From NCBI RefSeq assembly GCF_902170785.1, contig NZ_CABHYG010000017.1, positions 496,001 through 560,000 of the forward strand: DNA of 64,000 bases, in the 5' to 3' direction. Below, one piece after another: positions 29,636 through 62,845 of the stretch; position 1 is the first letter of the stretch; every line of letters begins with the position of its first letter. The DNA comes from Yersinia proxima. Its GTDB lineage: Bacteria; Pseudomonadota; Gammaproteobacteria; Enterobacterales; Enterobacteriaceae. The notes beneath the pieces were generated by a model, which saw only the letters and a program-made list of their open reading frames with translations, did no database searches and had not been told where the DNA came from. Position numbers and translations under genes: made by a program.

Positions 29636-30103
29636 ATGAATATTGAAATATGCCAAGCCGACCTATTTATTCCTGAGCTTCTTACATTAATGACTCAATT
29701 AGATGCGTATCAATCCGCACTATACCCCGCTGAAAGTAATCAGGCAGAATCGCTCGAGAGTTTGGCTCAAATAGAAACATTCGTTTATGTTGCTAAATGT
29801 GAGGAAGATATTGTTTGATGCGCTATTCTGGCACTGCCCAAGACGCCCTACCCTGAAATTAAGCGCGTTTTTGTCAGCCCAGATTATCGAGGCCAAGGGG
29901 TTGCTCGACGACGAGTAGCCGCGTCACTCCAACAAGCTAATGCGTTAAATTTAAATGAAATTTATCTTGAAACGGGAGTTTATCAACTTGAAGCGATAAA
30001 ATTATATCAGCGATTAGGTTTTGAATTAATATCTCAATTTGGCCGCTATGAATATGACCCATTAAGTGTGTATATGATGAAATCACTAGATTCCAGCCAC
30101 TGA
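29636..30103 (+). pseudogene. GNAT N-acetyltransferase broken by one in-frame stop
   Basis: A GNAT-family acetyltransferase of 155 codons with a single in-frame TGA at 29816-29818 (codon 61). The frame continues without further stops: after the TGA come CAILALPKTPYPEIKRVFV, the acetyl-CoA loop RGQGVARRRV, then LYQRLGFELI, FGRYEYDPLS and VYMMKSL. Family members have Gly just before the CGA or CAI segment, so the TGA most likely arose from GGA by one base change. AAAGGAGG precedes the ATG. The downstream part is still conserved, so the mutation looks recent. Sequencing error or read-through cannot be excluded. Confidence 0.85.
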
Positions 30104-30187
30104 GCAAATGATGAGTAACATGCATAAAGTACATGCATCTAATTTAGGTCATTTGAGTTTTACTATTTTCAAAACAGCTGAAATGCA

Positions 30188-30213
30188 AAATAGCCGCCCT
30201 ATGGCAGCTATTT
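30188..30213. terminator. Hairpin after the GNAT pseudogene
   Basis: AAATAGC-C-GCC and GGC-A-GCTATTT form a stem with one internal mismatch (a wobble on the minus strand). On the minus strand it is followed by TTTT, so it could end a leftward transcript from the CRP region as well as the rightward GNAT transcript. Confidence 0.5.
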
Positions 30214-30400
30214 AGAATAAATATTCAGGATTATACAAATCAAAATACTAAATATTGTATAATAACAACAAATTCAGAATCAGATAATTACATATTATGC
30301 TGTTATTTTACATTCTGTTTCCGATGTATACAGAACCATCATCCGCAAACTGAATTCCATCCAGAATATTGTGAAGAATCACGGATTAATGGTGAAGTAA

Positions 30401-30472
30401 TTAACCGTTAATAGTGCCAAATGAGACGCTCATTTTTTCGAACATTGCGATAACTTTATTAATCAGTTTCAT
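30401..30472 (-). CDS. Candidate 23-residue small protein, AzuC-like
   Basis: A short frame, M-K-L-I-N-K-V-I-A-M-F-E then KMSVSFGTING, has a good CTGGAGCTAC ribosome site before its ATG. Two perfect CRP palindromes lie upstream. From memory, the E. coli small membrane-associated protein AzuC (28 residues) begins MKL, has MF at residues 10-11 and a T-F at 17-18; this ORF has MKL, MF at 10-11 and S-F at 17-18. AzuC is made from a CRP-controlled dual-function RNA. The resemblance is suggestive, not proof. The frame is an amphipathic, basic helix in appearance. Confidence 0.45.
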   Translation of the reverse strand: MKLINKVIAMFEKMSVSFGTING

Positions 30473-30502
30473 AGGTAGCTCCAGTAAATATCTTTATTTT
30501 TA

Positions 30503-30518
30503 TGTGATACACATCACA
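30503..30518. promoter_or_regulatory. Perfect CRP site, proximal
   Basis: TGTGATACACATCACA matches both CRP half-sites (TGTGA-N6-TCACA) without mismatch. It is centred about 38 bp upstream of the small ORF on the minus strand and about 230 bp upstream of ychJ. Confidence 0.7.
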
Positions 30519-30560
30519 GTTATAAAGTTACGCTGAAATGGAACGGCGGTCAAGTATTTT

Positions 30561-30576
30561 TGTGACGTCCATCACA
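30561..30576. promoter_or_regulatory. Perfect CRP site, distal
   Basis: TGTGACGTCCATCACA is a second perfect CRP palindrome, 58 bp from the first. On the minus strand a TTGACC at 30546-30551 follows it and could be a -35 box for leftward transcription. ychJ lies about 170 bp to the right. Confidence 0.7.
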
Positions 30577-32389: not shown

Positions 32390-32566
32390 TATCTCTATAA
32401 TCATCCCAACCTTCTGATAAGCCTTTCAAGCAAAATAAACCTCATTATCAGGAAGGTAAGAACCTTCGACCAAGGTTCGCGCCGAGCGCAGCGAGACAAC
32501 GACGTGCAGCGGCGGCCCGAAGGGTGAGGAACGAAGTGACGAATAATCCTTCCCCCACCACCATCT
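32390..32566 (+). repeat. rtT-like repeat: second copy of the tRNA-Tyr 3' end
   Basis: The last 20 bases through the CCA end (AATCCTTCCCCCACCACCAT, 32371-32390) recur at 32545-32564, a period of 174 bp. The region between holds one hairpin (32409-32457, stem near ACCTTC-TGATAA) and a GC-rich stretch with AAGGTTCG at 32471 that resembles the tRNA T-arm. E. coli tyrT has tandem rtT units of about 178 bp, each ending in the tRNA 3' end, so the organisation is alike. Confidence 0.6.
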
Positions 32567-58205: not shown

Positions 58206-58403
58206 AAGTGACATTGTCACTAGAGGTTAATGGCAAAGTGCCCGTATCGGTGAAAACAGGCAGATCGTAAAGACGCCGTAAACCCTTCCCTGGGGGCTCG
58301 AGCCGCGCCGTCCCTGGCGCGGACGCTTTACTCTTCTACCTGTCTTAACCTTGCAAGATCGAGTCGTTGGGTTTGTCATCAGTTTGAAGTGACATTGTCA
58401 CTA
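58206..58403. repeat. Palindromic miniature element flanked by 17-bp direct repeats
   Basis: AAGTGACATTGTCACTA occurs at 58206-58222 and 58387-58403, 181 bp apart, and is itself a palindrome (AGTGACA-T-TGTCACT). The interior is strongly folded: an ACAGGCAGATCGTAAAG arm pairs with CTTTACTCTTCTACCTGT further along, and GC-rich arms surround the centre. Size and folding recall the palindromic elements described in yersiniae. Confidence 0.6.
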
Positions 58404-62387: not shown

Positions 62388-62845
62388 ATCACCCCCACAC
62401 CAAAATGCATCAAAAGCACAATATTCTGTTGACAGAAAATTAACTCAGCAGAAAAAACTATCCAACACATTAATGATAGACTGTGACTTAATTCACAATT
62501 AATTTACACTGCAATCACTTTTCAATTCAATAGCAGGCTAAAAATAGAGATAACATGCTATTTTTAGCGAGTTATACAAAAGAATGACTGAAAATCCCCC
62601 TAATTATCCCTATTAACAGTATGAATAATTAGCATGTTGTTGATGTTAATTTTATTGGCTTTATATTCTGCACTTATAGCAAATAAACAGAATAATAATC
62701 TAATTAAATCTCTTTTAAGATAATTACGTCTGCCAGTAAAAAATACCCCGTACTCCCCACCATGGAGAGTTTCTCTTTTGAAAGATGGCGGATATTCATT
62801 GACATAACGTCAAGACAGGCCTCAATTTGTTCATATTGAGCTAGG
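62388..62845. other. Divergent promoter region of dadA and ycgB
   Basis: About 450 bp of AT-rich DNA between divergent genes. No gene, tRNA or further repeat is seen apart from the ERIC-like element listed separately. Confidence 0.45.

Follow-up and report, generated by a model that had tools for sequence, protein, structure and literature searches.

Which gene is controlled by the two perfect CRP palindromes (TGTGA-N6-TCACA) that lie at 30503-30518 and 30561-30576, their starts 58 bp apart, in a 64,000-nucleotide stretch of the Yersinia proxima genome (contig NZ_CABHYG010000017.1, positions 496,001 to 560,000; hereafter the window, to which all coordinates refer)? An initial annotation had noticed both sites and, leftward of them, a 23-codon open reading frame (ORF) with a good ribosome-binding site, and this description is accurate. 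It had further stated that the sites have no annotated target, had likened the ORF to Escherichia coli AzuC and had considered that the sites might serve ychJ, to the right. We consider it likely that positions 30576..30183 of the minus strand are a complete small-protein gene repressed by CRP, with a catalogued RNA, Ysr206, as its transcript.

Ysr206 carries a conserved reading frame

An annotated target does exist: positions 30519..30212 (minus strand) match the Rfam family RF02852 (Ysr206) over the full length of the model (1-312), with 225 bits in cmscan against a gathering threshold of 124, and the genome has one copy. The Ysr206 of Yersinia pseudotuberculosis, which belongs to the same RNA family and is encoded on the same strand, is filed as non-coding; here, the transcript (30212..30519, minus strand) is re-read as the mRNA of a small protein. 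The ORF (MKLINKVIAMFEKMSVSFGTING plus stop, 30472..30401, minus strand) has its ATG 30 nt past the proximal CRP site and a GGAG (30479..30482, minus strand) 6 nt before the ATG; GGAG is found in the 14 nt before the start in 19 of the 22 Yersinia loci read (for one locus, L022, another start is listed). A terminator-like hairpin of 11 bp with a loop of 4 in the fold and a short T tract (30183..30218, minus strand) is the probable 3' end of the transcript; a pattern scan listed no terminator.

That the frame is conserved between species, as the annotation had predicted of a real gene, is borne out: it is intact in 22/22 Yersinia loci with a coding pattern of substitutions. For the 22 distinct Yersinia sequences, the pooled proportions of non-synonymous (pN) and synonymous (pS) differences are 0.048 and 0.519, a ratio of 0.093 that none of 200 column permutations reached; for 19 distinct sequences from other genera the ratio is 0.29, with 0/100 permutations as low (24-amino-acid forms, a form starting with MT and two 16-amino-acid forms are excluded from the pN/pS set). 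Identity at codon positions 1, 2 and 3 is 0.96, 0.99 and 0.74, respectively; this and the identities along the transcript were calculated from 20 of the 22 loci. Between pairs of them, CRP site 2 (the proximal site) is on average 0.94 identical, the 5' untranslated region (UTR) 0.89 and the ORF 0.90, and identity falls to 0.67, 0.53 and 0.58 in successive parts of the approximately 190 nt after the stop codon, values that resemble the 0.65 upstream of the CRP sites. As conservation falls off after the ORF, a function of the RNA that involves its whole sequence is disfavoured. The substitutions show strong purifying selection on the 23-residue ORF, and from this pattern we strongly infer that it is translated. 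Ysr206 is thus an Rfam 'non-coding' RNA with a conserved ORF that, judged by its pN/pS of 0.09, appears to be coding.

The family consensus of the peptide is MKLINKIIAxFxNMxxSFGTFNx. Residues 1-14 have the moment of an amphipathic helix (19 of 2000 shuffles were as high), and conservation is strong in the SFGT[FI]N tail. A search of the 23-mer against NCBIfam and Pfam returned no family at E<=10. A 24-codon ORF further downstream (30382..30308, minus strand) was considered as a second gene and rejected, as it is not among the up to four ORFs listed for each of the other 20 Yersinia loci.

Two CRP sites bracket a putative promoter

The whole window has three perfect CRP sites, against 0.04 expected from shuffles, and nine sites with at most one mismatch, against 2.1 expected. 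The third perfect site is at 62482-62497.

A putative promoter lies between the two sites of the pair and points leftward, with a -35 hexamer TTGACC (30548..30553, minus strand) and, 17 bp from it, a -10 hexamer TAACTT (30525..30530, minus strand) that ends 6 nt before CRP site 2. The pattern scan did not return a leftward promoter in the interval between the two sites, and only three of six letters of the -10 hexamer agree with the consensus; the assignment is therefore based on conservation. A TTG...-17-TAnnnT promoter, with spacers of 16-18 allowed, fits 69 of 70 distinct inter-site sequences, all from related loci and compared without a shuffle control, and in 56 of them 6 nt separate the -10 hexamer from CRP site 2 (distinct sequences were counted because the loci of separate scans overlap, with Y. 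massiliensis and Y. thracica represented twice). With this geometry, CRP site 2 (TGTGATACACATCACA on the plus strand, 30503..30518) would cover the transcription start with its centre at about +9, and CRP site 1 (TGTGACGTCCATCACA on the plus strand, 30561..30576) would lie upstream of the promoter with its centre at about -49. The 5' end of the Rfam model maps to 30519, in agreement with the start deduced from the promoter. The sites thus bracket the -35 and -10 hexamers, one of them lying on the predicted start, an arrangement expected of a CRP-repressed promoter, and we propose CRP site 2 as the site of repression.

Although the Rfam model does not cover CRP site 1, 47 of the 49 model-found loci read have two sites with at most one mismatch each. 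In the same 47 loci the two sites are 50-60 bp apart, and the spacing is 57 or 58 bp in 45 of the 47.

This arrangement agrees with what has been reported from Y. pseudotuberculosis: detection of Ysr206 is reported from a crp mutant alone, and CRP(-cAMP) is reported to bind cooperatively to the ysr206 region (Nuss et al. 2015, PMC4376681). The wording is ambiguous, as 'exclusively detected' can refer to all three RNAs or to the antisense RNAs alone, and that of one review is equally ambiguous; we take the phrase to include Ysr206 because the geometry of the sites predicts repression. On the basis of this detection in the crp mutant and of the cooperative binding, CRP is reported to repress Ysr206 in Y. 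pseudotuberculosis. The suggestion of a CRP-controlled gene to the left of the sites thus agrees with a known minus-strand RNA, and we regard repression by CRP as very probable for the Ysr206 gene.

The CRP pair and the ORF occur together at different chromosomal places

The Ysr206 model matches 22 of 25 Yersinia genomes, 20 of them above the cut-off. In a sample of 198 genomes of the family, 38 have a match at E<=0.1; three of these are Yersinia, and they alone are above the cut-off (one control-set match at E<=0.1, in Methanosarcina acetivorans, was below the family cut-off). Of the 35 non-Yersinia genomes, 27 were fetched and read and 8 were not: 24 of the 27 loci have a 23- or 24-amino-acid ORF of one family, one has an ORF starting with MT and two have a 16-amino-acid form. 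The 23-mer was counted in 30 genomes of the sample, 28 at E<=1e-10 (a cut chosen post hoc) and two with Serratia-like variants at about 1e-5. An order-wide sample gave matches at E<=1e-4 in 11 of 394 genomes, all Enterobacteriaceae, one of them the 16-amino-acid form.

Scanning a collection of species genomes with the CRP pair alone identified at least 120 loci, at least 34 with the peptide and at least 4 with the 16-amino-acid form; many of the other 82 of the 120 loci listed are from Gram-positive bacteria. Among the matches listed, the genera with the peptide include Pectobacterium, Dickeya, Brenneria, Samsonia, Prodigiosinella, Serratia, Edaphovirga, Kosakonia, Enterobacter, Leclercia, Lelliottia, Intestinirhabdus and Yersinia, and those with the 16-amino-acid form include Citrobacter.

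Peptide and twin CRP sites around a promoter are thus present in various Enterobacteriaceae, at differing places of the chromosome. All 22 Yersinia loci have ychJ and purU on one side; the other side has rssA in 20 loci and rssB in two. Outside Yersinia, no match to YchJ, PurU or RssA was found within the 1.5-kb flanks of the 27 loci. In Enterobacter-like genera the peptide locus lies between genes which we take to be atpC and glmU, and in Pectobacterium and Serratia it is near what are presumably a purine permease gene and a Na/H antiporter gene. The atpC-glmU interval of E. coli K-12 has no CRP-like site (at most two mismatches allowed) and, by eye, no such ORF, and neither G107 nor G162, the two E. 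coli-like members of the family sample (with 96% identical AzuC), has a strong match to the 23-mer. This lack of strong matches could be the reason why the family had not come to light in the model organism.

Resemblance to AzuC

The residues on which the initial annotation had based its comparison with E. coli AzuC (MKLRKILKSMFNNYCKTFKDVPPGNMFR) are literally present: MKL at the start, MF at positions 10-11 and S/T-F at 17-18, with 6 of 21 positions identical and a pairwise E of 0.057. The homology that they seemed to suggest could not be established. The AzuC model NF033642 (stress_AzuC), which scores E. coli AzuC with 75.9 bits and a divergent AzuC with 46.5 bits, was not matched by the 23-mer (0 NCBIfam families at E<=10), and hhalign aligned only 4 columns of the 23-mer and AzuC profiles, with a probability of 2%. 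With an AzuC hidden Markov model (HMM), one 23-mer reached 8.8 bits, above the 99.9% level of shuffles (7.1) and below their maximum (9.9); in the reverse comparison the score of 4.4 is below the 99.9% shuffle level of 5.8. Moreover, the two proteins coexist: AzuC is found in 62 of the 198 family genomes at E<=0.01 (60 strong matches) and in 23 of the 30 genomes that have the 23-mer. We therefore rejected the 23-mer as an AzuC orthologue. In Yersinia, AzuC was found in 0 of 25 genomes at E<=0.1, with the query that has 62 matches among the 198 family genomes; a weak match from Yersinia (L272) does not resemble AzuC and lacks a CRP-like site.

The loci differ as well. E. coli-like AzuC is preceded by two CRP-like sites of its own, at a distance of 30 bp in 28/28 parsed loci (the pattern caught 28 of 30), in contrast to the 57-58 bp of most 23-mer loci; its tail is of the VPPG type rather than SFGTFN, and its place is ftnB-yecJ-azuC-yecR, while the 23-mer of Yersinia is found on the ychJ side. 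Divergent, VPPG-tailed AzuC proteins of other genera (L253-L271) have at least one CRP-like site upstream in 19/19 cases, often only one. As far as the sequences tell, the resemblance of the 23-mer to AzuC is a parallel, not a demonstrable kinship; the scores would be compatible with a very distant common origin. Of the proposal that the ORF is AzuC-like, the functional parallel survives and the homology does not.

A CRP-repressed small-protein gene and its alternatives

A relocated AzuC, either as orthologue or as recent copy, would explain the spacing of MKL, MF and F, the one score above the 99.9% shuffle level and the repression by CRP, which is also reported for AzuC. It hardly seems probable, given the missing model match and profile alignment, the reverse HMM score within the range of shuffles, the separate AzuC in most genomes with the 23-mer and the different operator spacing. 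Equally little favours the idea that the CRP pair mainly serves ychJ. The ychJ ORF begins 168 bp rightward of CRP site 1, but the putative inter-site promoter is directed leftward, CRP dependence is reported for the leftward RNA and the pair accompanies the small ORF to 27 loci with no YchJ, PurU or RssA match in the 1.5-kb flanks. The sites therefore belong to the small gene, and the assignment to ychJ can be dropped; we think it very improbable. No better is the prospect of a purely non-coding small RNA (sRNA) with an accidental ORF, the form in which the literature and Rfam file Ysr206: frame, start, stop and amino acids are kept across genera, the pN/pS is low and the sequence drifts after the ORF. 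In view of the substitution pattern, this reading is close to refuted.

The most serious competitor is a true dual-function RNA, at once messenger for the peptide and base-pairing partner of target mRNAs, like AzuCR and VcdRP, which set a precedent for the class. Several observations are in its favour and weigh against a gene that acts by its protein alone: the RNA is well folded (better than shuffles, with a z of -2.8), the 5' UTR of just 30 nt is as conserved within Yersinia as stated above, and the third codon positions of the ORF are more similar than those of its neighbours (0.62 in YchJ, 0.60 in PurU and 0.54 in RssA). Conservation of the UTR and of third positions could reflect a pairing segment in the 5' portion, and an additional RNA-level role of Ysr206, perhaps located there, is compatible with the data. 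Two further points do not sit easily with our reading: three of the 25 Yersinia genomes have no RF02852 match and two more are below the cut-off, and the gene neighbours vary between genera, so that the context indicates no partner protein. Against dual function, the sequence after the ORF is no more similar within Yersinia than the sequence upstream of the CRP sites, little of it is shared, by eye, among 14 loci, and the RF02852 scores of the non-Yersinia loci fall far short of the cut-off. On balance, we regard a dual-function Ysr206 as unlikely, though far less so than the other three alternatives.

As a CRP-repressed small-protein gene, the locus could work as follows. At high cyclic AMP (cAMP), two CRP dimers would flank the promoter; repression is explained by the geometry, because CRP on the start site would block RNA polymerase, aided by the second dimer. 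With a good sugar, cAMP would fall, the gene would be derepressed and the peptide made. Residues 1-14 would form an amphipathic helix and the SFGT[FI]N tail would make a specific contact: the amphipathic residues together with the strongly conserved tail make a docking peptide the likeliest form. The target that the peptide would then tune, in the way of AzuC with GlpD and VcdP with GltA, would be a carbon-metabolism protein: an enzyme, a transporter or a regulator. By analogy with the known CRP-repressed micropeptides, we give an even chance to the suggestion that it acts on a metabolic or regulatory protein.

A shorter sister gene and a second reading frame

The genome has a 16-amino-acid sister peptide (MKVFHKIIALFANFSN) on another contig (G000 contig 4), behind a perfect CRP site and, by eye, with a near-consensus promoter (TTGATA-17-TATTAT) and a terminator. 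It is present in 24 of 25 Yersinia genomes (the tally at E<=0.1 is 25/25, with the only match of G022 being its 23-mer locus), and in 24/24 fetched Yersinia copies a CRP site, one with a mismatch, lies 38-39 nt upstream of the ATG. The sister and 23-mer families align with an hhalign probability of 98%; with the cuts used, both forms occur together only in Yersinia genomes of the family sample. The sister probably shares the N-terminal activity without the tail. Rfam has no entry for it; its neighbours are presumably a cold-shock protein gene and kdsB, and an Rfam cspA thermoregulator match lies beside it (L285, about 1501-1550).

In Pectobacterium-like genera, Serratia and Edaphovirga, an ORF of 27-28 codons (consensus MSIVRKINQILKALGKTYRGVNPYAIFR) follows the 23-mer ORF, beginning 24-30 nt after its stop codon in the loci listed. 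It has strong matches in 10 of the 198 family genomes, adjoining the 23-mer in 10/10, and an eleventh, weak hit at E<=0.01; in Yersinia it was found in 0 of 25 genomes at E<=0.1, with the query that matches 11 of the 198. From the spacing, the two ORFs are probably co-transcribed. The second ORF aligns with AzuC over 23 ungapped columns (probability 64%, E 6.6e-5) and the HMM scores between the two are marginal when compared with shuffles, a weak resemblance.

Another small ORF with twin CRP sites, for example MKMMRKISKFFKRMGDVYVSYCERIGSIISPF, is found in Pectobacterium and Samsonia (L158 5133-5330, plus strand; L111 2078, plus strand; L176, minus strand); it is weakly similar to the second ORF and, in L158, lies upstream of a gene that we take to encode a trehalose phosphotransferase system (PTS) protein. 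An Enterobacterales metagenome bin (L175 2302, plus strand) has twin CRP sites followed by MKFIRKINKFLKEQGNIHAAAAKHNLY, possibly of the same class.

As a tentative idea, on which we would not insist, the 23-mer, the 16-amino-acid sister, the AzuC-like second ORF and AzuC may all belong to a single dispersed set of micropeptides repressed by CRP ('glucose peptides'), which enteric bacteria would deploy together at low cAMP, each docking with its amphipathic helix on a different protein of carbon metabolism; Ysr206 would then belong to a group of supposed 'sRNAs' that in fact serve as mRNAs of micropeptides. If so, Pectobacterium-like genera and Serratia would make two such peptides from one transcript, and these may act as a pair.

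Other features of the window

Between the small gene and rssA lies a gene, presumably for a GNAT acetyltransferase (29636-30103, plus strand), that an in-frame stop interrupts in the genome analysed here; 19 of the 22 Yersinia loci, the one from this genome among them, have matches to its first part in the corresponding position. Further Rfam matches in the window are an RtT RNA (32436-32563, plus strand) beside a tRNA and Ysr224 (58223-58329, plus strand); given Ysr206, Ysr224 is worth checking for hidden ORFs.

Comparison with known CRP-repressed small-protein RNAs

Our literature searches did not find the peptide sequences of the 23-mer family, any report of the family or any report linking an AzuC homologue, a small protein, CRP and Yersinia, and the accessible parts of the literature on Ysr206 describe no ORF. 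Within the reach of these searches, a CRP-repressed small-protein RNA is of a known kind, while the 23-mer protein family and the reading of Ysr206 as an mRNA appear to be new. If Ysr206, published and listed by Rfam as a 'non-coding' sRNA, is an mRNA, as it appears to be, its knock-out or overexpression takes on another meaning. The few tiny proteins known to be repressed by CRP and to adjust metabolism would be joined by a separate family, and an operator geometry that hardly varies offers a simple route to more such genes.

Three systems resemble Ysr206 in what is reported of them. Vibrio VcdRP is an RNA repressed by CRP, and its 29-amino-acid protein VcdP raises the activity of citrate synthase (GltA); the likeness, drawn from descriptions, is a small protein on an RNA reported as CRP-repressed. 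It differs in that VcdR has a pairing segment that has been shown, while none is known for Ysr206. Spot 42, a CRP-repressed base-pairing regulator, encodes the 15-amino-acid SpfP, which binds CRP, and is likewise similar by description only, as a CRP-repressed RNA with a tiny protein. AzuCR is similar in that a tiny protein, AzuC, which according to papers citing the original work acts on GlpD by binding and stimulating it, is encoded by a short RNA whose gene is preceded by two CRP-like sites and is reported to be repressed by CRP.
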